A DNA stretch of 64,000 bases. Origin: Urinicoccus timonensis. GTDB taxonomy: Bacteria; Bacillota; Clostridia; Tissierellales; Peptoniphilaceae. A program made the translations under genes and the position numbers. Below are positions 11,161-64,000 of this stretch, in pieces. The stretch's first letter is position 1. Every line of letters starts with the position of its first letter. The DNA is taken from the NCBI RefSeq assembly GCF_900232945.1, contig NZ_OCTU01000001.1:809899-873898 (forward strand), read 5' to 3'. The notes beneath the pieces are model-generated. The model did not search any database, was not told the origin of the DNA, and saw only the letters and a list, made by a program, of their open reading frames with translations.

Positions 11161-12441
11161 CTATTTTAAAAATCCTCGGTAGTGTCTCATTAGCATTTGT
11201 TGTTCAATAACTCGACCTGTTTCAAGAATAACTCCCACTACGATGATCATGCTCGTTCCACCAAAGTTAAAGCTCATTCCACTGGCTTTTGTTAAAAAGT
11301 AGGGAAGAACGGCTAGGATGGATAGGGCAATCCCACCTGGGAAAACTAAGCGGTTTACTGTCCGACTTAAATAATCACTGGTAGACCGGCCAGGACGGAT
11401 ACCTGGAATAAATCCACCGTTTTGTTGTAAGTTCTTGGAATATTCCACTGTGTTGAATTGGATGGTGGTATAGAAGAAAGTAAAGAAGACAATTAAGACG
11501 ATGGTCAAAATTGAATAGATACTTAAGCCCAACCAATTTCCTCCTGGTGAGAACCACTTGTCTACAAAGGCTGCGAAACCAGAATTCGGTCTAAAGAGCG
11601 CAATGGTTTGTGGCATGGCCATGATGGAGTTTGCAAAGATAATCGGCATAACCCCACTCATAAGAACCTTGATGGGAATATGGGTGGATTGTCCACCGTA
11701 CATTTTCCGACCTACAACGCGTTTTGCATATTGAACTGGAATCCGACGTTCTCCTTCGTTTAAGGTTACAACGAAGAATACGATGGCCAGGGCAATAATT
11801 ATAAATAGAATCAAAAAGATAACGGATGCTTTACCTGCCATAACAGCTACGACAGACCTGTAAATATCTGCTGGGAATCGAGATACGATACCGGCAAAGA
11901 TAATTAATGAAATTCCGTTTCCTATGCCGTGTTCTGTAATTAATTCGCCAATCCAAATTAAGAAACAAGAACCAGCCACGATAGATAATACAACGACTAG
12001 GTTTTCTAAGAATCCATTTGCTAAGACAGCTTGAGAAAAAGCACCATAAACATAGCCCAATGCTGTAACTAAAGCTAGAACTACAGATAGATATCTTGTG
12101 TATTTTGCAATTTTTTTACGGCCCGTTTCACCTTCCTTGGAAAGTGCTTCTAGGCTTGGAATTGCAATGGTCAACAGTTGCAGAACGATTGATGCGGTAA
12201 TGTAGGGATAGATGTTTGCAGCGAAAATCGTAAACCGACTGACTGCTCCCCCTGCCATTAAATCTAAAAATCCGAACAAACTACTTTGTCCATGAGATAA
12301 TAGGTTCGCAATATATGCTCTATCTACAAAGGGCACCGGAATGTTTGCGCCAATGCGATAGACTACCAGCATTAAAAGAGTAAAAATCATCTTTTTTCGA
12401 ATTTCCGGTACTTTCCACGCATCTCTGACAGTCTGCAACAT
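11161..12441 (-). CDS. secY: Preprotein translocase subunit SecY
   Basis: 426 residues with ten predicted membrane helices, the main pore subunit of the Sec channel. Family marks include the N-terminal VYRIGANIPVPFVD, the plug/lateral gate region, GERRIPVQYAKR in the cytoplasmic loop and PGIRPGRST near helix 8. Its ATG overlaps the rplO stop by 1 nt (TAATG), indicating coupling. Confidence 0.98.
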   Translation of the reverse strand: MLQTVRDAWKVPEIRKKMIFTLLMLVVYRIGANIPVPFVDRAYIANLLSHGQSSLFGFLDLMAGGAVSRFTIFAANIYPYITASIVLQLLTIAIPSLEALSKEGETGRKKIAKYTRYLSVVLALVTALGYVYGAFSQAVLANGFLENLVVVLSIVAGSCFLIWIGELITEHGIGNGISLIIFAGIVSRFPADIYRSVVAVMAGKASVIFLILFIIIALAIVFFVVTLNEGERRIPVQYAKRVVGRKMYGGQSTHIPIKVLMSGVMPIIFANSIMAMPQTIALFRPNSGFAAFVDKWFSPGGNWLGLSIYSILTIVLIVFFTFFYTTIQFNTVEYSKNLQQNGGFIPGIRPGRSTSDYLSRTVNRLVFPGGIALSILAVLPYFLTKASGMSFNFGGTSMIIVVGVILETGRVIEQQMLMRHYRGFLK

Positions 12442-49901: not shown

Positions 49902-51257
49902 TCAGGCAATCTGGGATAGGATTAGGCCAGCTAGGTTGAAGTAGACCACTAGAACCAGAGCATCTATAATGGTGGTAATAATGGCGGCACTCATTAGGGC
50001 CGGGTCAAATCCTAGTTTTTTCATCAAAATGGGTAGACCTGCCCCTAGAAGTTTGGATAGGATAATGGTGACAATCATAGTCAAGGTCACCAGGACACTC
50101 ACTCCCAGGTCTGTTCCTAAGATCATCAGGCGGACAAAGTTGACCAAGGATAGGATGACTCCTACCACCAGACCCACTCGTCCCTCCTTCCACATGATGT
50201 AAAAGACGTCTTTGAGTTCAATTTCTCCAGTTGCCAATCCCCGGATGACCACAGTGGTGGATTGGGACCCTGTATTTCCTCCTGTCCCGGTAATCATAGG
50301 GATAAAGGAAGTCAGGATGATGTATTTGGCAATAATGGGGTTATAGTGCTTGATAATCCCGGCAGAAATGGTTCCGGAAATCATGAGGATTAAGAGCCAG
50401 GGAATCCGGTTTTTTGCCAGGGACCAGGCACTTTCATCCAGGTAGTCCATGTCGGAGTCTCCCCCGATCCCTACCATCCTATGGAAGTTTTCCGTATCCA
50501 AGTCTTCAATGATTTCCAGGATATCATCAAAGGTAATGATCCCAGTTAAGCGGTGCTCCTTGTCCACTACAGGCAGGGCCAGGTAGTCGTATTTTTGGAA
50601 GCGGTCGGCCACTTCCTCAATGGGGTCCAAGGTTTTGACATAGATAACGTCTGTTGTCATCATATCTTCCACCAAGGTATCATCATCAGCCACCACCAAT
50701 TCTCTTAAGGACACAAAGCCCAGGAGGGTGTTTTTTTCATCTACCACATAACAGGTATAGACGATTTCTGAATCCTCGCCATTTTCCCGAATAAACTTCA
50801 TGGACTCTTCCACTGTCCATTCGGGTTTCAGGGCCAGGTACTCGATGGTCATTTCTGCCCCAGCTGTTCCTGCTGGATACATTAAAAACTCGTTGATTTG
50901 CCGTCTTTCTTCCGGACTGGCTGCTGCCAAAACCTTGGTGACGATTTCAGCAGGGACTTCTTCCAAGAGGTCAATCATGTCGTCAAAATAGAGTTCTTCC
51001 ATGATATCGAGTATTTCTTGGTCTGTTATGGCATCAATGAGTTGGAGTTGTTGGGAGTGGTTGAGGTAGGTAAAGACATCAATGGCCTTGTCTTTTGGCA
51101 ACATTCGGTAGATAAGGATGGCATCTGTGGTATCCAGGTCTTCAATAATCTCTGCCAAGTCTGCTTCATTCATCCGGCTGATTTCTTCTTTGATGGCCAC
51201 CATGTCTTTTTCTTCAATCATATGTTTTAAGTGTTCTAATTGTCTATTGTCTTCCAT
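49902..51257 (-). CDS. mgtE: Magnesium transporter MgtE (paralogue 1)
   Basis: 451 residues. N-terminal superhelical domain (about 1-130, YLNHSQQLQLIDAITDQEI), tandem CBS domains (about 135-260, MMTTDVIYVKTLDPIEEVADRF), a plug helix and five membrane helices with TGGNTGSQSTTVVIRGLATGEI, the ion-pore region. MgtE is a Mg2+-gated Mg2+ channel. It lies 10 bp after a paralogue of the same layout. No M-box riboswitch precedes the pair. Confidence 0.95.
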   Translation of the reverse strand: MEDNRQLEHLKHMIEEKDMVAIKEEISRMNEADLAEIIEDLDTTDAILIYRMLPKDKAIDVFTYLNHSQQLQLIDAITDQEILDIMEELYFDDMIDLLEEVPAEIVTKVLAAASPEERRQINEFLMYPAGTAGAEMTIEYLALKPEWTVEESMKFIRENGEDSEIVYTCYVVDEKNTLLGFVSLRELVVADDDTLVEDMMTTDVIYVKTLDPIEEVADRFQKYDYLALPVVDKEHRLTGIITFDDILEIIEDLDTENFHRMVGIGGDSDMDYLDESAWSLAKNRIPWLLILMISGTISAGIIKHYNPIIAKYIILTSFIPMITGTGGNTGSQSTTVVIRGLATGEIELKDVFYIMWKEGRVGLVVGVILSLVNFVRLMILGTDLGVSVLVTLTMIVTIILSKLLGAGLPILMKKLGFDPALMSAAIITTIIDALVLVVYFNLAGLILSQIA

Positions 51258-51267
51258 GCTCTCTCTC

Positions 51268-52614
51268 CTAGTATAAGATCAAGTTTGCCAGGCCAAAATA
51301 GATAATTAAGGCACAGGAGTCAATAACGGTCGATATAAAAGAGCTGGCCATTAGGGCAGGGTCGAAGCCGAGTTTTTTCACCACAATGGGTAAAAAAGCT
51401 CCCATGATCTTGGACAGTTCCACCACACAGAGAATGGTTAGGCTCACTAGGAGGCTGATTAAAAAACTTTCCTTCACCAGGAAGAAAAGGCGGATAAAGT
51501 TGACAAAGCCTAGGGCCAGGCCTGCAATAAGGCCAACTTTTCCTTCTTTAAAGACAACCTTCCATATATCACTGATCTTAATGTCCCCCGTAGCCAGGGC
51601 CCGGATAACCATTGTCGAGGACTGAGACCCCGTATTTCCCCCAGTGTCAGACAACATGGGGATAAAGGATGTCAGGATAATAAAGTCTTGAATAATCCAA
51701 TTATAGCGGTTGATAATTCCTGAAGTCAGGGTGGCTGAAATCATTAAGATCAAGAGCCAGGGTAGGCGGTTTTTGGCCAAAGACCACACTGTCTCTTCCA
51801 TGTAGTCCTTCTTGGAAGGCTCAATAGCAGCCATCCTGTGGAAGTCTTCTGTGGTTTCTTCCGTCATGACGTCCATGATGTCGTCTACGGTAATGATCCC
51901 TATGAGCCGGTGCTCTTGGTCTACTACTGGCAAGGCCAGGTAACCGTACTTATTAAATTTATCGGCAACATCTTCCTGGTCATCCAAGGTCTCTACAGAA
52001 ATAACATCATCGATCATGATATCTTCAATCTTGGCCTGGGGATTTTCCGTTACCAATTGTCGTAGGGAGACAAAACCCAGTAGTTTTTGATACTTATTTT
52101 TTACATAACAGGTATAGACCGTTTCCTTGGTCATCCCGATTTGCTTGATGTATTCCAGAGCTTGGCCTACTGACCATTCAGGCTTCAAGTCTACATATTC
52201 GGTGGTCATAATGGACCCGGCAGAGTCCTCCGGATACATTAAAAATTCATTAATAATCTTTCTTTCTTTTAAGGGGGTTTGTGCCAGAACTTTATTGACA
52301 AAGGATGCAGGCATTTCCTCTAAAAGGTCAATCATATCATCAAAGTAGAGGTCGTTTAAAATGGACTCCAATTCTTCATCAGTCATGGACGTAATCAAGA
52401 GCCGACGTTGGTAGGGGGTCATATAGGCAAAGACATCAATGGACAGGTCCTTGGGCATCATACGGAATATGAGCAGGGTATCTCTTTCGTCAAAAGATTC
52501 CAAAAGTTCTGCCAAATCAGCCCCATTCATCGATTCGACTTCTTGTTTTAAGGTTTGTAGGTCCTTACTTTCAATTAAATGAGCAAAATATTTTGCTTGG
52601 CGTTCTAAATCCAT
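51268..52614 (-). CDS. mgtE: Magnesium transporter MgtE (paralogue 2)
   Basis: 448 residues from the ATG at 52614 after AGGAGGAAGC; an earlier in-frame start has no site. Same domains as the neighbour: N domain, CBS pair (IEDIMIDDVISVETLDDQEDVADKF) and membrane domain with SDTGGNTGSQSSTMVIRALATGDI. The conserved pore motif differs slightly at its first residues (SDTGG versus TGTGG). It is the first gene of the mgtE pair. Confidence 0.95.
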   Translation of the reverse strand: MDLERQAKYFAHLIESKDLQTLKQEVESMNGADLAELLESFDERDTLLIFRMMPKDLSIDVFAYMTPYQRRLLITSMTDEELESILNDLYFDDMIDLLEEMPASFVNKVLAQTPLKERKIINEFLMYPEDSAGSIMTTEYVDLKPEWSVGQALEYIKQIGMTKETVYTCYVKNKYQKLLGFVSLRQLVTENPQAKIEDIMIDDVISVETLDDQEDVADKFNKYGYLALPVVDQEHRLIGIITVDDIMDVMTEETTEDFHRMAAIEPSKKDYMEETVWSLAKNRLPWLLILMISATLTSGIINRYNWIIQDFIILTSFIPMLSDTGGNTGSQSSTMVIRALATGDIKISDIWKVVFKEGKVGLIAGLALGFVNFIRLFFLVKESFLISLLVSLTILCVVELSKIMGAFLPIVVKKLGFDPALMASSFISTVIDSCALIIYFGLANLILY

Positions 52615-52640
52615 GCTTCCTCCTTTCTTGTCTCCTCTTG

Positions 52641-52649
52641 ATTGTATCA
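52641..52649 (-). promoter_or_regulatory. Extended -10 promoter of the mgtE pair
   Basis: TGATACAAT on the minus strand, 27 bp before the mgtE2 start codon, immediately downstream of the telA terminator. Confidence 0.5.
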
Positions 52650-52663
52650 TACTTGACCCCATG

Positions 52664-55029: not shown

Positions 55030-55911
55030 ATGAAAAAAACATATACGCTTTTGGCCCTGGTTTTGTGCCTGGCCATGCTTCCCTTTACAGCCCTAGCTAA
55101 AGAGGGAGCCACCCTGGTAACCCTGGGGGAAGACCTGACTCCCCGGGAAAAGGAAGCTATTTTGAAAGAATTGGATCCACCGGAAGATGCCGACTATGTC
55201 ACCGTATCCAATAAGGAAGAATACGACTATTTAGGAGATGTTCTACCAGCTAAAAACATTGGTAACAAGGCCATTTCCTGCGCCATTGTCCGCTACACAC
55301 CAGAAGGATCTGGCATCCATGTTAAACTTAGCCCCCTGGTTAAGGTGATTAAAGAAGATGCCTACCGCAACGCCTTGATTACAGCAGGGATTAAGGATGC
55401 CGACATCTATGTCACAGCTCCCGGCAATGTGTCCGGATCTGCTGCCCTAACAGGCCTCTTCAAGAGCTATGAAAAAAAGACTGGCCAAAAAATTCCGGAA
55501 GATGTAAAAAAAGTAGCCAATAAGGAAATGGTGGTTACCTCCAGTCTAACCGAGGAAGTTGGAGAAGACCAGGCCAATGACTTTATGAACAGCGTCAAGG
55601 TCCAAATGGCTGAAAAAATGCCCCAAAATGAAGCAGAAGTCCGAGACATCATCCAAAATATTGAAAACCAATACAATATCAACCTGTCTGAAGGCCAAAA
55701 GACCCAAGTGGTCAACCTCTTTAACGACATGAAAAACACAAATATTGACTGGGACAATATTAAGGAGCAAGCTGGAAAGTATTCCCAAAAAGCCAAGGAC
55801 TATATCAATAGCGAGGAAGGACAAGAAAATCTTAAGAAGGCCAAGGGGCTTTTACAGCGCTTTATTGATTGGATCTTCTCCCTTTTTGACAAGTCCAGCC
55901 AAGAGGGCTAA
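55030..55911 (+). CDS. Secreted DUF1002 protein
   Basis: 293 residues. Signal peptide 1-23 (LLALVLCLAMLPFTALA). Residues about 25-230 match DUF1002 (YpuA-like): LGEDLTPREKEAILKELD, VTVSNKEEYDYLG, AISCAIVRYTPEGSGIHVKL and the helical SAALTGLFKSYEKKTG. The C-terminal 60 residues are helical and end in LQRFIDWIFSLFDK. The family is extracytoplasmic with no known activity. Confidence 0.88.
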   Translation: MKKTYTLLALVLCLAMLPFTALAKEGATLVTLGEDLTPREKEAILKELDPPEDADYVTVSNKEEYDYLGDVLPAKNIGNKAISCAIVRYTPEGSGIHVKLSPLVKVIKEDAYRNALITAGIKDADIYVTAPGNVSGSAALTGLFKSYEKKTGQKIPEDVKKVANKEMVVTSSLTEEVGEDQANDFMNSVKVQMAEKMPQNEAEVRDIIQNIENQYNINLSEGQKTQVVNLFNDMKNTNIDWDNIKEQAGKYSQKAKDYINSEEGQENLKKAKGLLQRFIDWIFSLFDKSSQEG

Positions 55912-56906: not shown

Positions 56907-56957
56907 ATATCTTGGTTTTTTACTTGAGGCCAGCCAATCAGCACGAAGGCTTAAATG

Positions 56958-57003
56958 AAAGATAAACAGCCCTCTTGATTAATCAAGAGGGCTGTTTATC
57001 TTT
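56958..57003. terminator. 23-bp perfect palindrome, shared terminator
   Basis: A perfect inverted repeat of 23 bp per arm (centre GATTAATC) lies between convergent genes, with TTTATCTTTC on either strand. It most likely terminates the ECF S-component gene on the minus strand and backs up the plus-strand terminator at 56882-56906. Confidence 0.65.
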
Positions 57004-57094
57004 CTTATTCTTGCCGAATATAGGTCTGCTCTTTAGTTCTTTTTATTAGCCAAAGTCATTCCCTCTAGCAGTAAAGATGGAAGAGATCTATGAC

Positions 57095-57814
57095 CTATGA
57101 CTTATCATTTAAAAGTCCATATTTTTTTTGAACTCGTTGTATTTTTTCTAAAAAGGGTTCTCCAAAGAAAAACAAAAAGCCAAAAGTTCCCAACCCATGA
57201 ATTAAGTCAAAGGGAAGACCTTGAGCATAGGAAACTAGAATCATATCCCAAGTTACATGATCATAAAAACTAATAATCGATATGGGATTCATTATAGACC
57301 CAAATAGGCAAAAGATGGAAAGAAATCCATAAATCCCCATACCCCACTTAGTCTTAGGGATTTTAAACTTCTGAAAAAGAATTCCGGAAAAAAAACCAAT
57401 TAGGCCAAAAGAAAACATCTGCCAGGGAGTCATGGGCCCTTGGCCAAAAGAGAAATTAGATACAAAAGCAATCATAGCTCCTACAACAAAACCCGACTGA
57501 GGACCTAGAGCGATTCCACTCACAATAGTGACGGCAGCTACCGGCTTAACTTGGGGAATCCAAAAAAAAGCCATCCGTCCAGCTACACCTATAGCCGACA
57601 GCCCTGCAATTAAAATTAACTCCCTTGTCCTAATTCCTCTCCTCTCAAATAAAAGTAGAAATGGTACCGTAGTTAAAAGTAACATTAGTAGACTAATAAA
57701 AATATACTTTCGGTCATTTAGCACTGTCATTCCAAATATAAGAAGAGCAGGAATAATAATTAGAATAATAAGACCACTTATTCTAGCAAGTTTTTTATTC
57801 CTTTCTTGAGACAT
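57095..57814 (-). CDS. ECF transporter S-component (substrate-binding membrane protein)
   Basis: 239 residues with about six hydrophobic helices and the S-component style segments LIAGLSAIGVAGRMAFFWIPQVKPVAAV and GPQSGFVVGAMIAFVSNFSFG, followed by GPMTPWQMFSFGLIGFFSG. S-components bind the vitamin and dock on EcfT. The neighbours (transcobalamin-like halves) favour a cobamide, as for CbrT-type S-components, but the ligand is not shown by sequence. It follows the DUF4430 gene after 196 nt. Confidence 0.85.
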   Translation of the reverse strand: MSQERNKKLARISGLIILIIIPALLIFGMTVLNDRKYIFISLLMLLLTTVPFLLLFERRGIRTRELILIAGLSAIGVAGRMAFFWIPQVKPVAAVTIVSGIALGPQSGFVVGAMIAFVSNFSFGQGPMTPWQMFSFGLIGFFSGILFQKFKIPKTKWGMGIYGFLSIFCLFGSIMNPISIISFYDHVTWDMILVSYAQGLPFDLIHGLGTFGFLFFFGEPFLEKIQRVQKKYGLLNDKS

Positions 57815-58010
57815 TCCAACCTCCTGCGTTCAAGCTTTTAATGATTTGCAAATACTCCATCTTTTGATTTTCAATACTGCTAGCATTTCCCCAAAAATCA
57901 ATGTGATATCTGTTTTTCTGATTCTTATAGATAACTACCTCTAACTAGGATTCTTTTCTTCCGAATAATTTTATATCCTTCCTATGAAATACTTTTATTC
58001 TATCTAAGGT
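57815..58010 (-). other. Spacer with protein-like open frame
   Basis: This 196-nt gap before the S-component gene carries a frame of 49 codons without a stop that ends 15 nt inside the next gene and reads like protein (VVIYKNQKNRYHIDFWGN... NAGGWNV). It lacks a good start: the only ATG gives 21 residues. It could be a leader peptide, a gene remnant or chance. No B12-box or riboswitch core was seen. Confidence 0.3.
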
Positions 58011-59159
58011 CTATTTTACCATAGAATTATCTCCAACATCTCTACCTAAATCACAAGTATAGACCCATTCAATCTGGTCACCAGCTTTCACTTGATAACG
58101 AGAGCATCCATAATTTGGGAACCAGCCATTTACTTTGTACATCCAACCAGAAAGTTCTCCACAGTCAAACTCATAGAGGTTATGGATTCCCATGACATAG
58201 GCAGAATTATAAGCTGGAGTAAAATTGGCCTCCATATGGATTTTTCTCGCCTTGGTTTCTCGACCTAAAACATCAAATACTGATTCTCCTGGATGAAAGT
58301 TCACTTGGGTCGGTGGTAAAATAAGTCCATCTACTGGCAAAACATCAATCTTATCCATGTCGAAATGGTCCATATTTTGTAAAATTGTATCACATCGAAT
58401 GGACAGGGTACAAGTTTCTAGCCGATCTTCTTTTTCCACACTTCCCGGTTCCACTGGCTTGGGTCTTCCAGCTGGTGTTGGGTCTGTTAGGTACTTGTCC
58501 TTCTTCCCTTTGGAACTCTGGGCAATAGCCTCTTGTTTTAATCTCTTATCTTCTTGGTCTTTCTTGGCCCTTTCTTCCGGACTAACTTTTGCCTGCTCTT
58601 GCATTGCCTTTTGTTTTAACTCTTCCTTGTTTTTTGGAGTAGCTATAGGCTGACTGGCCTGAGGACTTTCTTGACCAGGTTTAGGGTTTGCCTGGTCTTT
58701 TTTGGGCAAGAGTTTAATCTCCTTATAGGCCCTCGTTTGATCTTCCTTGGCTGTTCCACAAATAGTAAGGCTTTGGGCATTTTCACTAGCTCCCACTTGT
58801 AAGAGACCTGCTTCTGAGATCACTGTATCTTCCTTATGAGGACTGGTAATTTCCCAAAGGATACTGGGGTCGTAGTCTCCCTCTCCTTCAATTTGTGCCG
58901 TAAACTGAGCCTGGCTCCCTATCTCTACCTCTTCCTTATCAACAAGGATAGTCAAGTTTTTTATCTTCCCTTTACCTGTCAAGGCATGTAGATCCTTGTT
59001 CTCTTGTTCTTTAAGTTGAGAGACCTTTTCCGCATCAGCCGTCCGATTATCCGGACGTAAAAAATCACTATTATAAATAAATGCAAAAATCAGAAGAACC
59101 CCTAGGGCCACCAGCCCTAGGGTTTTTTGTTTCTTGGTCAAATTTTGGAAAGCCTTCAT
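58011..59159 (-). CDS. Membrane-anchored DUF4430 (transcobalamin C-terminal-like) protein
   Basis: 382 residues. One membrane anchor at about 11-29, an Ig-like/BIG2-type domain at about 62-152 (LTILVDKEEVEIGSQAQFTA), a Lys/Gln/Glu/Pro-rich linker of about 155-245, and a C-terminal DUF4430 domain (about 275-375) with FHPGESVFDVLGRETKARKI, CGELSGWMYKVNGWFPNYGC and GDQIEWVYTCDLGRD. DUF4430 corresponds to the small beta domain of animal transcobalamin. Its ATG overlaps the stop of the SLH barrel gene by one base (TAATG). Confidence 0.88.
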   Translation of the reverse strand: MKAFQNLTKKQKTLGLVALGVLLIFAFIYNSDFLRPDNRTADAEKVSQLKEQENKDLHALTGKGKIKNLTILVDKEEVEIGSQAQFTAQIEGEGDYDPSILWEITSPHKEDTVISEAGLLQVGASENAQSLTICGTAKEDQTRAYKEIKLLPKKDQANPKPGQESPQASQPIATPKNKEELKQKAMQEQAKVSPEERAKKDQEDKRLKQEAIAQSSKGKKDKYLTDPTPAGRPKPVEPGSVEKEDRLETCTLSIRCDTILQNMDHFDMDKIDVLPVDGLILPPTQVNFHPGESVFDVLGRETKARKIHMEANFTPAYNSAYVMGIHNLYEFDCGELSGWMYKVNGWFPNYGCSRYQVKAGDQIEWVYTCDLGRDVGDNSMVK

Positions 59160-60715
59160 TATTTTACTCCAGCCAAACGGTTAATCATTTGAACGCCTTC
59201 AGCACGGTTAATATTGGATAAAGGAGCCAATCCTTCAGGACGTCCCTTGACAATTCCCTTTTCTACCATCAAAGCTGCAGAGGGTTTTGCCCAATCAGCT
59301 ATTTGGTTTATGTCCCTAAATTGTTTCAGACTTTCTTCATTTCCCTTGGCTTGGGGTAGAGCTCGAGCAAGCATGGACATAGCTTCTTGACGAGTAATAT
59401 TTGCATTGGGATCAAAATTCCCATCTCCTCGTCCTTTGATGATACCTTGGGCTGTAGCAATAGAAATTGCTTTTCCATACCATTCACTTCCCCTAACGTC
59501 CTTGAAGCTTGAAGGGCTTTCCTTTTCTGATTTTAAATTCAGTCCTCGAACTAACCCTACAGCAAATTCCCCTCGAGTAATGTCCTTATTCGGTGTAAAA
59601 GCCTTACTACCATTAGCTATACCATAGCCCTTAGTCTTTTGAATCAAGGCTTCTGCCCAGTGGCCCTGAATATCTGTAAATCCTTGGTTTCCACTGACAA
59701 CTCCCGTATTCCCCTTAAGACCTCCATCTTGCTTCATATCAAAAAGGGCCGGCTTCTTTTCCTCAAATCGCTTTAGGGCAACTAGGGCTTCCATGGCTTG
59801 GTCTGTCCCCATTCCATTGGCGCTTGTTTCTGTTTGTACATGCTTGAAACCGCCTTGAGGAGCCTTGTAGGTTAAAAGTGCATCTACAACAGATTGTTTC
59901 CTTCCATTGGCATCACTTTTTACAAAACGATGGTCTTTGGCTGGATCAATGCCCAAGCTTGTTAAGGCAATAATGGTTTGGGCAGAAGATTCTGAATTTT
60001 CAGCTCCCATTGTTTGGTAACCACCTGTGGGAAGTTGCATGTCTGACAAGGCTTGAACGCCCCGGTCAATAGCTGCCTTTACCTTTGGTTGATTTCTATA
60101 GGGAACCAAAGAATAAAGAGCCATCGCCGTCATATCCGGATCAGCCTTTTCTCCCATAAGATTCCATCCACCACCGTTTACTTCCCGTCTTAAAATTTCT
60201 TCTACCATTCGTTCTCTAGAGTTTTGGTCTGCACTTGAATCAATTTTTGATAGTTCATAACCCTTGGTATCTAGGGCAATTAGCGCCCAAATAGGCCCGT
60301 TCAGACCTTGTTTTAAGACATTTTTAAAATTGGACAGAGGTTTTACCAGGTCGTAGCCGGCTACATTCCTTGGATCCTTTCCAATAGCTGTTAAGGCGCA
60401 AATAATTCTGGAATATTCCGTAAACTTATTCTTAGATAAGTCTCCATTTTTGCTCTTTACTGCTTCTTCTACCCTCTTGTAGTAGCCTTCATAATAACCG
60501 GCCGGTACAGGTTCTCCACTTCGGGCTAGAGATAGAACTGTCCATTCTCCAGCCATAGTACCAAATTCTGGTGCATCCACTGTGGTGTACAAAAACCTTG
60601 CTGTTTCCTTTACTTCCTTATCTGCCCGAGATGCTGCAAAAACAGGTCCCGTGGTCATGGAAAGTAATAAAACAAGGGCTAAAAGGCAACTTAACTTCTG
60701 CTGTATTTTTTTCAT
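59159..60715 (-). CDS. Secreted prenyltransferase-repeat (alpha/alpha barrel) protein with three SLH repeats
   Basis: 518 residues. Signal peptide 1-28 (LSCLLALVLLLSMTTGPVFA). Residues about 35-330 carry terpene-cyclase/prenyltransferase-like repeats: GGGWNLMGEKADPDMTAMALYSL, GGYQTMGAENSESSAQTIIALTSL and GGFKHVQTETSANGMGTDQAMEALVAL. About 346-518 hold three SLH repeats (FTDIQGHWAE, FKDVRGSEWYGKAISIA, FRDINQIADWAKPSA) that bind secondary wall polymer. Without a prenyl-enzyme active site, a ligand-binding barrel as in transcobalamin is the better reading. It overlaps ecfA by 4 nt (ATGA). Confidence 0.9.
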   Translation of the reverse strand: MKKIQQKLSCLLALVLLLSMTTGPVFAASRADKEVKETARFLYTTVDAPEFGTMAGEWTVLSLARSGEPVPAGYYEGYYKRVEEAVKSKNGDLSKNKFTEYSRIICALTAIGKDPRNVAGYDLVKPLSNFKNVLKQGLNGPIWALIALDTKGYELSKIDSSADQNSRERMVEEILRREVNGGGWNLMGEKADPDMTAMALYSLVPYRNQPKVKAAIDRGVQALSDMQLPTGGYQTMGAENSESSAQTIIALTSLGIDPAKDHRFVKSDANGRKQSVVDALLTYKAPQGGFKHVQTETSANGMGTDQAMEALVALKRFEEKKPALFDMKQDGGLKGNTGVVSGNQGFTDIQGHWAEALIQKTKGYGIANGSKAFTPNKDITRGEFAVGLVRGLNLKSEKESPSSFKDVRGSEWYGKAISIATAQGIIKGRGDGNFDPNANITRQEAMSMLARALPQAKGNEESLKQFRDINQIADWAKPSAALMVEKGIVKGRPEGLAPLSNINRAEGVQMINRLAGVK

Positions 60716-62349
60716 TTTCTTTCTCCTTCTTGGTTAATCTCTTCAATTGCATCTTCAATGGTAACTATGTTCAGATTTTCCTTGCGAAAAATTTTATTAG
60801 CTGCTGTTGTATAAAAGTGATTCCCTGAAAAAAATTCTCGACTAGGTCCTTGGCTGATGCACTCTCCATTAAAAAACAAACTACATTGTTGGGCTGTTTC
60901 TGCACAAAATTCCACATCGTGGCTGACCATTAAAACAGTCCCTCCTCTTTTTACATAGCGGTCTAGTATTTCCTTAAATTTCAACTTAAATTGACCATCC
61001 ATCCCTTTAGTAGGCTCATCTAAAAGTAAAATCCTTGGCTTTTTTAAAAGAATCTTAGCCAAGGCCAGACGTTCCATCTCTCCCCCACTTAAATCAAAGG
61101 GGTGGTGGTTTAAAATCTTTTCCAAGTCAAATTCTTCAATAATTTCTTGTATTTCTTCCTGGTCCCTGGACATTTCTTCCAGTTCTTCCCGGGCACTTTT
61201 AAATACAAAGAGGGCTTTTGGATGTTGGGGTACCAGGGCAATATCCCTATTTATCTCACCCTTTTTGCGCTTCTTTTCCCCGTCATAAACTTTTCCTCGG
61301 CTGGCCTCTTCTACTCCGGAAATTAACTTCAACATGGTAGACTTTCCAGCCCCATTTCCTCCCAAAATTCCATGGATTTCTCCAGGATTTAGCGTGAAAT
61401 TCAATCCCTTTAAAATATCCGGTCCTTCTTTTTTATAGCGGAAATAAATATTTTTTAAGGTCAGTATGGGCGATTTTTCCTGCCCTTCTTCTTGAGGTTT
61501 TGCTTCCGAGGGTCGGGGCCCCTCTTTTAATTTAGGCCGACTCCTTAAAGCCTCTCCAACAGTTAAAGGAACCTCCCCCTGCCAGTCACTCTTAACATAA
61601 ATTTGGGCCGGTGCCGGTAAGGATTCTAAAATGGGTTTGGGCTCTCGTTTCATCTCTCGAACGAAGTCTCTGGGATTCCCATCAAAGGCAATGGATCCAT
61701 TTTCTAAAAATAAAATTCTTTCTGCCAAGGCATAAGGCTCCGTCAATCGGTGCTCACTGACTAAAATAGTAATTCCCAGTTCCTGACAAACCCGATTTAA
61801 GCCTTGAAAAAATTCTAATGAGGCAATGGGGTCCAACATAGCCGTCGGTTCATCCAAGAGCAAAAGCTTCGGTTGCATACAAAGAATAGATGCCAGGTTT
61901 ACCATTTGGAGCTGGCCACCTGATAAGTCCGTTACCTTTTTTAAAAACCAAGACTCCATTCCAAAAAAACTGGCAATTTCTCCAACTCGTAGCCGCATGG
62001 TTTCCTGGTCTAATCCCAAAGATTCCAAGCCAAAGGCCAATTCATGCCAGACCTTATCTGTTACAATTTGATTTTGAGGATCTTGTTGAACAAAGCCAAT
62101 ACCTGATGCATCTTCTCTTAAATCCAAGTCTTGGATATTTTTATTATTGTAAACAATCCTCCCCTTCTTTTCTCCAAAAGCAGCTAAACTCTTCTTACAC
62201 TGCCTTAAAAGGGTCGTCTTCCCGGAAGCCGATAAGCCTGTTAAGAGGACAAACTCTCCTTCCTTTAAAGAAAAATTTACATCTTTTAAAATCCAGTTGT
62301 CTCCTTCAGGATATTTAAATGAAAAATGATCTACCTTGAGTATTTCCAC
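60712..62349 (-). CDS. ECF transporter double ATPase (EcfA1-EcfA2 fusion)
   Basis: 545 residues with two ABC domains. First: Walker A GLSASGKT at 38-45, LSGGQLQMVNLA, LLLLDEPTAMLDP. A Pro/Glu-rich linker around 265-300. Second: GGNGAGKST, LSGGEMERLALA, ILLLDEPTKGMDG and switch MVSHDVEF. ECF systems usually have two separate ATPases; the fusion gives a 1:1 pair. Start is GTG at 62349 after GGAGGAATACCA, overlapping ecfT by 19 nt. Confidence 0.92.
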   Translation of the reverse strand: MEILKVDHFSFKYPEGDNWILKDVNFSLKEGEFVLLTGLSASGKTTLLRQCKKSLAAFGEKKGRIVYNNKNIQDLDLREDASGIGFVQQDPQNQIVTDKVWHELAFGLESLGLDQETMRLRVGEIASFFGMESWFLKKVTDLSGGQLQMVNLASILCMQPKLLLLDEPTAMLDPIASLEFFQGLNRVCQELGITILVSEHRLTEPYALAERILFLENGSIAFDGNPRDFVREMKREPKPILESLPAPAQIYVKSDWQGEVPLTVGEALRSRPKLKEGPRPSEAKPQEEGQEKSPILTLKNIYFRYKKEGPDILKGLNFTLNPGEIHGILGGNGAGKSTMLKLISGVEEASRGKVYDGEKKRKKGEINRDIALVPQHPKALFVFKSAREELEEMSRDQEEIQEIIEEFDLEKILNHHPFDLSGGEMERLALAKILLKKPRILLLDEPTKGMDGQFKLKFKEILDRYVKRGGTVLMVSHDVEFCAETAQQCSLFFNGECISQGPSREFFSGNHFYTTAANKIFRKENLNIVTIEDAIEEINQEGERK

Positions 62350-63212
62350 TGGTATTCCTCCACAAGCGATAAAATAACCGGCATAAATGCCAGAACAACA
62401 AATACAAAGAAAGCTACTAGGGAAAACCCATCGACCTTGGCAATTTTCACAGTTGGATAAATAACCATTTTAAACCTTCGAAAATATGCAGCTAAGATAC
62501 AAAGAACACTCCCTAAGAGGACCGAACCTAAAAGAACATAATCTCGCCTCTCCATTCTAAAGAGAGCAAAATGCGTTCTCCCCTCTAGTCCATGACCTCT
62601 AGCCTTCATAGAATCTGCCGTCTCAATACTAGATTCCAAGGACCAAGTAACAAAAATCGAAAAAATCTTCAAGGCATTTTTAAAGCGACGAAGAAGAGAT
62701 CCTTGACTCATATCCTCTCCAATTCCCTTTCGACAAGCATAGATGGTCCGGATCCGCTCCTTATACAGAGGGACAAACCGCAAAACCATGGAAAAAATTA
62801 AAGATAGGGAAGGTAAAATCCGGCCAAATAAATATAAGATTCTATCCGAAGTCATAACCCGGTTGTGACAGGAAAACCAAAGAATCATAGTCGTAAACAT
62901 AAGCCCTGCTGATAAGCCAAAGAGGAGAGATTCCAAGGTCAAGGGATTTCCATTGGGAAAATACCAAAGAATAGTCGCCCCCTGATGGATCAAAATAGGG
63001 TTTAAAATAGTAATAAAAAGACCTGTCGATATAGCCATCACTAGTGTTTTCCAACTTTTTTGAAAGCCCACTTGGACCAAAAGATAGGACAAGGCCCCTA
63101 GAAAACTAGCCCCTTGAACCACAGGATGGCGTAAAAACATGGTGAAGGCTAGAATAAAGAGAAAAAATAGCCCCTGGCCCCAGGGATTGTAATCCTTAAA
63201 AAAATCAGTCAT
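62331..63212 (-). CDS. ECF transporter transmembrane component EcfT
   Basis: 293 residues with five or more hydrophobic helices. The cytoplasmic coupling part has ADSMKARGHGLEGRTHFALF, containing the Ala-Arg-Gly motif that contacts the ATPases. EcfT links the S-component to the ATPase pair. ATG at 63212 lies six nt after AAAGG; a TTG just before it is less likely. Confidence 0.88.
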   Translation of the reverse strand: MTDFFKDYNPWGQGLFFLFILAFTMFLRHPVVQGASFLGALSYLLVQVGFQKSWKTLVMAISTGLFITILNPILIHQGATILWYFPNGNPLTLESLLFGLSAGLMFTTMILWFSCHNRVMTSDRILYLFGRILPSLSLIFSMVLRFVPLYKERIRTIYACRKGIGEDMSQGSLLRRFKNALKIFSIFVTWSLESSIETADSMKARGHGLEGRTHFALFRMERRDYVLLGSVLLGSVLCILAAYFRRFKMVIYPTVKIAKVDGFSLVAFFVFVVLAFMPVILSLVEEYQWKYSR

Positions 63213-63298
63213 CAAAATCCTTTCAAATAAAAAACAAACTGCCGGAAAGTTAACGTAAAATATCTCTAATCTGTGTTATCCGTTGCACCCCCTCTTCC

Positions 63299-63688
63299 TC
63301 AAATAATTTCAAAAGCTTCCAAGTTTAGAGAAGGTGGAATAATAATTGGTGTATCAATTAACTCTTTGGTCATAGTTCCTATTAGGAAAGATAGGAGATT
63401 GGCTGCCTGGGAACACAAGTCATAGGATAAGTTCTTCGCCTCTTGAATTGCTAGATCTTGAACAAAATCCACCTGAATCACTTGGTTGACTTGACAAGTA
63501 AAAAGAGCCCGCGGTTCAGGAACCACATCAGTGGAAAGATGGTAGAGATAAGTTTTAGTCCCCTCCACCTTTTCCACTCTTGCCTTATGAGATACATTGA
63601 TATTTAAAGGCTTACTCCGGTCTGGAATTTTATCCAAAACCTGTCCTGAAAAGCCCTTTAATTGAACGCTTAACTTTTCAATCTCCAT
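63299..63688 (-). CDS. SecB-like small protein
   Basis: 129 residues from the ATG at 63688, after AAGGAGGAAAAG. The strand pattern EIEKLSVQLKGFSGQVLDKIP, the region RALFTCQVNQVIQVDFVQDL and the end ELIDTPIIIPPSLNLEAFEII resemble the SecB fold, whose C-terminal part typically ends in a PPLNL..NFDAL-type segment. Gram-positive SecB-like proteins act as chaperones or in toxin-antitoxin-chaperone sets; no toxin gene is present here. It leads the ECF operon 86 bp before ecfT. The family call is tentative. Confidence 0.5.
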   Translation of the reverse strand: MEIEKLSVQLKGFSGQVLDKIPDRSKPLNINVSHKARVEKVEGTKTYLYHLSTDVVPEPRALFTCQVNQVIQVDFVQDLAIQEAKNLSYDLCSQAANLLSFLIGTMTKELIDTPIIIPPSLNLEAFEII

Positions 63689-63803: not shown

Positions 63804-64000
63804 CTAGTTATTCATAGTGTAAATGACTTGAGCAAATTCTGCCCGGGTAAGGGTCTTGTTTGGTGCAAAGTTCCCCTTGTCTTGTCCTTTAAAGATGCCG
63901 GCTTCTGTCATTTTTCTTACGGCTTCTTTGGCCCATGGGCTAATTTGTTCTTGGTCTTTATAGGTTTGTGCCTGGTTTTTATCTTCCAGTTTTCCTTGTT
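63804..64000 (-). CDS. SLH-domain protein, C-terminal fragment
   Basis: Reading on the minus strand from the right edge, 65 codons are open to TAG at 63804. The residues ISPWAKEAVRKMTEAGIFKGQ and FAPNKTLTRAEFAQVIYTMNN are a complete SLH repeat, preceded by part of another or a linker. The N-terminus lies beyond the window. It is a second wall-anchored protein directly upstream of the ECF operon. Confidence 0.85.
   Translation of the reverse strand, partial: QGKLEDKNQAQTYKDQEQISPWAKEAVRKMTEAGIFKGQDKGNFAPNKTLTRAEFAQVIYTMNN

Follow-up and report, generated by a model that had tools for sequence, protein, structure and literature searches.

The minus strand of a 64-kb stretch of the genome of Urinicoccus timonensis, a human-associated bacterium (contig NZ_OCTU01000001.1; this whole stretch is termed the window, and positions refer to it unless another locus or genome is named) carries, from 63688 down to 57095, a run of genes in the order small gene, EcfT, EcfA-EcfA', α/α-toroid protein, DUF4430 protein and S component. 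The run places two surface proteins beside the genes of an energy-coupling factor (ECF) importer, and we propose that it serves to capture and import cobamides, with a part for each of the two surface proteins (probability of roughly 0.86). The EcfT and ATPase genes overlap by 19 bases and the ATPase and toroid genes by four, and a single base, 59159, is common to the stop of the toroid gene and the start of the DUF4430 gene, as a first-pass annotation of the sequence had reported. Only the S-component gene stands apart, separated from the DUF4430 gene by a gap of 196 bases.

The toroid protein (59159-60715) starts with a hydrophobic signal segment, which is followed by the toroid (residues ∼34-330) and by three S-layer homology (SLH) domains (∼346-512; PF00395, E = 1.2e-32) that match the SLH structures of Sap with an E value of 8e-19. 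The toroid itself matches PF00432 weakly (E = 5e-4, under the cut-off), an assignment that finds support in relatives, some of them modelled; the relative P0002 is identical at 165 of 453 positions across the toroid and SLH parts. The DUF4430 protein (58011-59159) has one membrane segment, near its N-terminus (residues 16-34), followed by a weak immunoglobulin-like region (72-141), a charged linker and a domain of the transcobalamin β type (SLBB) at ∼281-377 (PF14478, E = 4.5e-17), which shows near-invariant columns in 63-65 aligned rows. The wall and membrane anchors of the pair, and the S-component gene beside it, had all been recognized in the first-pass annotation. The annotation had also described a fused EcfA/EcfT pair, and on this point it has to be corrected: the fused pair is EcfA-EcfA', a 545-residue protein with a GTG start (60712-62349) that contains two Walker A motifs, two LSGG motifs and two ABC_tran stretches and matches TIGR04520 in two stretches (297 bits, cut-off 315). 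EcfT is a separate gene (62331-63215, with a likely ATG start at 63212) encoding six membrane segments. No Pfam or NCBIfam model matches it at an E value of 0.1 or better, and among EcfT chains of the PDB the best match is 5d3m_D (E = 5.3e-8), with 4hzu_T and 4huq_T also found.

The S component (57095-57814; PF12822, E = 2.8e-7; PF07155, E = 1.3e-6) is of the CbrT type. A phmmer search against all PDB sequences gave 6fnp_A (E = 2.4e-7) as the sole match with an E value under 1.9, and a profile built from 55 sequences again gave 6fnp_A (E = 4.2e-16), the next S component being 4hzu_S at 0.28. PDB entry 6FNP is ECF-CbrT, the vitamin B12 transporter of Lactobacillus delbrueckii (PMC5997447); chain A has 182 residues and is labelled 'membrane protein', and we take it to be CbrT because the EcfT of 6FNP has a different sequence. 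The CbrT-like core of the window protein spans residues 63-233 and is preceded by two additional N-terminal membrane helices, a region that is conserved in the 55-row alignment. ECF-CbrT is described as transporting cobalamin and cobinamide, with hemin failing to compete (PMC5997447). On this homology, and with the riboswitches described below, the ligand is very probably a cobamide, the class that the first-pass annotation had proposed; consistent association of the pair with S components for other ligands, which would have spoken against the proposal, was not seen among the related loci.

The gene set is widely shared. Related loci were taken as the best 80 of 244 confirmed relatives, with up to 10 kb of upstream DNA. 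In 69 of the 80 loci the DUF4430 gene has a toroid open reading frame (ORF) upstream whose end is no more than 1.5 kb away; the median gap is 21 bases, and in 39 of the 69 it is 30 bases or fewer. This adjacency exceeds chance. Toroid, DUF4430, EcfT, double ATPase and S component are present together in 56 of the 80; in two of the 80, no DUF4430 ORF was detected. Latilactobacillus curvatus shows the same gene order with an LPXTG anchor replacing SLH; no cobalamin riboswitch was found in its 12-kb stretch. The S component lies within an ORF of more than 500 residues in 34 of the 66 loci that have an S match (L005, L044 and others), where it is apparently fused to the double ATPase as EcfA-EcfA'-S, an unusual single chain whose domains were checked for L005.

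A riboswitch of the cobalamin class lies upstream on the same strand, within 10 kb, in 57 of the 80 related loci, and in 56 of these 57 no opposing ORF of more than 300 bases intervenes between riboswitch and module. The expectation by chance, calculated from riboswitch numbers and genome sizes, is 0.44 over the 71 genomes searched, or ∼0.5 when scaled to 80 loci. The first-pass annotation had proposed to check whether, in other genomes, this gene pair neighbours S components for cobalamin or riboswitches for B12, and these counts bear it out. Direct scans with all of Rfam covered 56 of the 80 loci, and the other 24 were assessed by mapping whole-genome riboswitch positions through coordinates. 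Since such mapping is ambiguous for fragmented genomes, the loci concerned were rescanned directly, and all five coordinate-mapped loci with a match that were rescanned (L002, L004, L015, L034 and L047) gave the same places. In the 56 direct scans, the matches above cut-off were cobalamin riboswitches (that of L024 being of the adenosylcobalamin type), tRNA and rRNA, with no thiamin pyrophosphate, flavin mononucleotide, preQ1 or other riboswitch class. Of the 23 loci lacking an upstream riboswitch, 11 have less than 10 kb of upstream sequence; among the remaining 12, L001 and L032 have one farther upstream and L006 and L080 have one downstream.

For a second sample, the starting set was 148 genomes of the class, 63 of which have a DUF4430 match; the 35 best-scoring, minus five already used, left 30 genomes chosen by DUF4430 score alone, with riboswitches disregarded. 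In 20 of the 30 a same-strand riboswitch lies no more than 25 kb upstream, and 23 have a gene for a CbrT-like S component downstream at a distance of up to 20 kb. Among the 10 genomes without a riboswitch, at least five have the DUF4430 match within 10 kb of the contig start, G197 and G110 have more than 30 kb of upstream sequence and G144 has no match at all. The best DUF4430 and S places of G182 and G121 fall on different contigs, each with a cobalamin riboswitch 3-4 kb upstream. The genomes of L001, L002 and L004 contain 15 DUF4430 places, of which 14 follow a cobalamin riboswitch on the same strand at a distance of 2.5-21.4 kb.

Within the 64-kb window itself Rfam gave no cobalamin riboswitch, and the position of the one in the closest genome, that of Urinicoccus massiliensis FC2 (G001; locus L001), lies beyond the span of the window. 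The two loci are near twins, with identities of 99% for the DUF4430 protein, 98% for the toroid protein, 98% for EcfT and 100% for the S component. In G001 the run continues upstream past the point corresponding to the window edge with three large SLH proteins of 2438, 1066 and 1664 residues. The first (G001:C13:263182-270498) belongs to the same gene run and is the counterpart of the ORF at 63804-64000 on the minus strand, where a large SLH surface protein extending past the window edge has its C-terminus; the G001 protein contains SLH, FIVAR and Big_2 domains and a DUF4430 match just under the cut-off, and the 1066-residue protein contains toroid-like, Big_3, DUF4430 and SLH domains. At the head of this run, which ends in the module, stands a same-strand cobalamin riboswitch (G001:C13:279076-279258, 109.8 bits), and the sole opposing ORF listed between riboswitch and module is 67 residues long. 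A distance of 21.4 kb separates the riboswitch from the DUF4430 domain, so that its control of the module would require a long transcript, and the window genes may likewise be controlled through a long run. Shorter distances are seen elsewhere: in a second copy of the module in G001 (L003) the riboswitch (L003:4074-4255) directly precedes the small gene, and in L002 and L004 riboswitches of 34.6 and 65.9 bits directly precede EcfT. Upstream of the riboswitch of the long run, the stretch G001:C13:279651-291957 holds a second cobalamin riboswitch followed by more large proteins, in which two places match DUF4430.

The two halves of the putative binder also occur joined in nature. At L049 both lie in one 539-residue chain with a lipoprotein-like start, located after a cobalamin riboswitch and before EcfT. 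A protein search with this chain gave at least 7571 of 8000 scored candidates at E ≤ 1e-20, many of which cover one half only; among the 120 of the 7571 matches listed, 18 (the query included) have DUF4430 and cover at least 89% of the chain. P0002 combines a toroid, two SLH domains and DUF4430 in a single chain, and in P0088 the order is swapped, with DUF4430 preceding the toroid. The one-chain architecture of the animal B12 carriers, absent from the window with its two genes, is present in P0001 and P0003. Such natural fusions support a joint action of the two halves, as predicted from sequence. AlphaFold models of two fused two-domain relatives were computed with no ligand, and for both the 15 best Foldseek matches in the PDB are transcobalamin, intrinsic factor and haptocorrin, with both domains aligned. 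The β domain of a modelled relative resembles that of human transcobalamin (TMt of 0.74 for 5no0 and 0.73 for 5np4), and its helix 447-457 is followed by strands 462-467 and 472-478, which form a hairpin insert after the helix with conserved aromatic residues (tyrosines 470 and 474, in 97-98% of 63-64 rows). The PDB sequence searches found no link between DUF4430 and transcobalamin. The likeness to a transcobalamin in two halves, as drawn in the first-pass annotation, is upheld by fusions and Foldseek matches. The closing of the clamp is a putative step: the ligand-free models do not show the closed arrangement, and superposition of both their domains on the B12 carriers gives root-mean-square deviations of 16-22 Å.

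That the module serves to import cobamides seems to us very probable. The alternative of another cargo (some other tetrapyrrole, for example, or a terpenoid or glycan), with the resemblance to transcobalamin reflecting shared folds only, could draw on the wide use of toroid folds, the nearest shapes here being those of terpene cyclases. VIA-align returned mainly toroid enzymes and no transcobalamin in the 50 rows listed, a list that excludes nothing. The alternative could also draw on the family libraries, in which Pfam places the S component in general and riboflavin S families and NCBIfam places it weakly near folate and riboflavin S families, under their cut-offs. However, CbrT is the sole clear relative of the S component in the PDB, the riboswitches found near the module are of the cobalamin class alone and the best two-domain fold matches are the animal B12 carriers, so that we regard another cargo as highly improbable. 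A milder variant, which overlaps with the proposal made here, is that corrinoid precursors or breakdown products, such as cobinamide or cobyrinate derivatives, are imported for salvage. The acceptance of cobinamide by CbrT (PMC5997447) is in keeping with it, as is the gloss 'cobyrinate diamide uptake' that one review, in its accessible part, gives for CbrUVT. CbiC was found in seven of 14 genomes tested, the twin genome included, which would suit cells retaining some steps of corrin synthesis; given its presence in U. massiliensis FC2, B12 auxotrophy is not supported as an explanation. A gene of the AP_endonuc_2 type occurs in or near the module in seven of the 80 loci, assigned by Pfam for the L004 copy (11195-12175), the related TIM-barrel genes being those of L006, L009, L012, L014, L058 and L060, with L009 and L012 in one genome. 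CbiR, a cobamide-remodelling enzyme, is reported to belong to the same TIM-barrel superfamily (PMC7733943), and the genes of these seven loci may be CbiR-like. The animal carriers most alike in fold, on the other hand, were solved with cobalamin bound. We regard salvage of precursors as the less likely role.

A cobamide importer lacking a shared clamp is a somewhat stronger contender, although still unlikely in our estimation. Here DUF4430 alone would serve the S component, and the SLH toroid would be an independent collector or retention device in the wall. The human transcobalamin β domain has been solved alone, both in apo form and with cyanocobalamin (5no0, 5np4), the predicted models of fused chains do not adopt a closed arrangement, and the lengths of the linkers between toroid and DUF4430 vary widely. 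The DUF4430 part is moreover strongly conserved (60-73% identity in many of the best segments, which start near residue 220), and Burroughs et al. suggest that different extracellular SLBB proteins may form complexes with one another (PMC1796856). Against this, two-domain chains are common, occur in swapped order too and in some cases have linkers of just a few residues, and the two genes are neighbours in most related loci, as counted above. On balance we lean towards cooperation of the two halves in binding, with both closing jointly around the ligand.

The proposed system would operate as follows. When B12 is low, the riboswitch would permit expression of the run, and when B12 is plentiful expression would be off. 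The SLH-anchored toroid in the wall and the membrane-tethered β-grasp (DUF4430/SLBB) domain would act as the halves of a transcobalamin-like binder; a corrinoid would be caught by one or both and then handed to the CbrT-type S component, which would topple in the ECF complex and release it inside, with EcfT and EcfA-EcfA' driving import. A toppled state is described for ECF-CbrT. The large upstream SLH proteins, with their further toroid and DUF4430 domains, are probable outer collectors. In a more speculative extension, a relay from wall to membrane that we put forward only tentatively, giant SLH proteins with complete toroid/DUF4430 pairs would collect cobamides at the surface, and the two-piece clamp would open and close over the gap between wall and membrane to load the dedicated CbrT importer.

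Parts of this scheme are already known, namely the idea of B12 scavenging (2007) and the biochemistry of CbrT, whose role as a B12 transporter was demonstrated in 2018 (PMC5997447). In bacteria, Burroughs et al. (2007) reported transcobalamin-like SLBB domains that are joined to toroids and encoded in operons together with CbiO- and CbiQ-like genes; they suggested that these proteins scavenge B12 or its precursors and that the animal carriers are of bacterial origin (PMC1796856). The accessible text of that paper names no S component and no arrangement with the toroid in the wall and SLBB in the membrane, and it uses neither 'riboswitch' nor 'S-layer'; the bacteria that it treats are reported usually to lack key enzymes of B12 synthesis, whereas CbiC is found in half of the genomes tested here. 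Metabolic reconstructions include CbrUVT as a predicted B12 ECF transporter (PMC8123684), probably the same importer half, but capture proteins go unmentioned in the portion available. ECF-CbrT shares with the window module a homologous S component (over the core) and EcfT, together with two ATPases; the window differs in that its importer genes are dedicated and form a single run, in the fusion of its two ATPases, in its surface capture proteins and in the two extra helices of its S component, and the accessible part of the ECF-CbrT paper names no capture partner (PMC5997447). Transcobalamin, intrinsic factor and haptocorrin likewise consist of an α/α toroid and a β-grasp domain with a hairpin insert after a helix. 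Unlike them, the window has two genes, with anchors apart in the wall (SLH) and the membrane, its sequence similarity to them is under detection in PDB searches and the models do not show their closed arrangement. For Gram-positive bacteria, the accessible part of a 2020 review gives BtuFCD homologues and the CbrT-type ECF transporter only. Searches of the open-access literature aimed at this subject listed no paper joining toroid/SLBB capture proteins to a CbrT-type importer, and of the six open-access papers naming DUF4430 none is, by its title, about bacterial B12 uptake. What appears to be new is a predicted transcobalamin-like pair whose members sit apart, one in the wall and one in the membrane, and are linked to a CbrT-type importer of their own.

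Several further features lie in or near the module. The first gene of the run within 57095-63688 encodes a small protein (63299-63688, minus strand), with a sequence resembling a ribosome-binding site before the ATG at 63688. It has no membrane segment and no family match in Pfam or NCBIfam; relatives precede the importer genes in L001, L002 and L003 and, distantly, in L070. On the 3' side of the S-component gene, a minus-strand hairpin at 56953-57004 is a probable transcription terminator, and the Rfam match to Plastid-psbA-3 at the same place was taken as spurious. A DUF1002 protein (55030-55911, E = 1.6e-71) is encoded nearby on the opposite strand, and a tandem gene pair at 49902-52662 encodes proteins of 451 and 464 residues, which we take to resemble MgtE-type magnesium transporters. 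In two related loci, nitrogenase-like genes lie between DUF4430 and S component (L003:11140-14554, equivalent to G001:C13:1065056-1068470, and L002:11162-14564). They encode a NifH-NifD fusion of 723-724 residues, whose best NCBIfam profiles are CfbC and NifH (under cut-off), and a NifD/K-like protein whose best profile is DPOR BchB, also under cut-off. Full-length relatives were found in two of the 148 sampled genomes (G001 and G002), and these genes were rejected as part of the module in the window, whose copy is without them. The substrate of such a nitrogenase-like tetrapyrrole reductase, lying within a module under a B12 riboswitch, could be a corrinoid.

Little is known of how Gram-positive bacteria, with their thick wall, capture B12 outside it when supply is scarce. 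In Bacteroides, BtuG surface lipoproteins capture B12 ahead of the transporter, but these belong to a Gram-negative outer membrane and have another fold. If the proposal is correct, a large family now listed under names such as 'DUF4430' or 'S-layer homology domain-containing protein' would belong to cobamide capture. DUF4430 would then have a function, the CbrT family would have a partner for capture and the competition for B12 would have a new player, and the origin of the human B12 carriers could be studied in a bacterial model. The relay, if it exists, would be a bacterial counterpart of the chain from haptocorrin through intrinsic factor to transcobalamin, made up of the two domains that probably also gave rise to the animal carriers.

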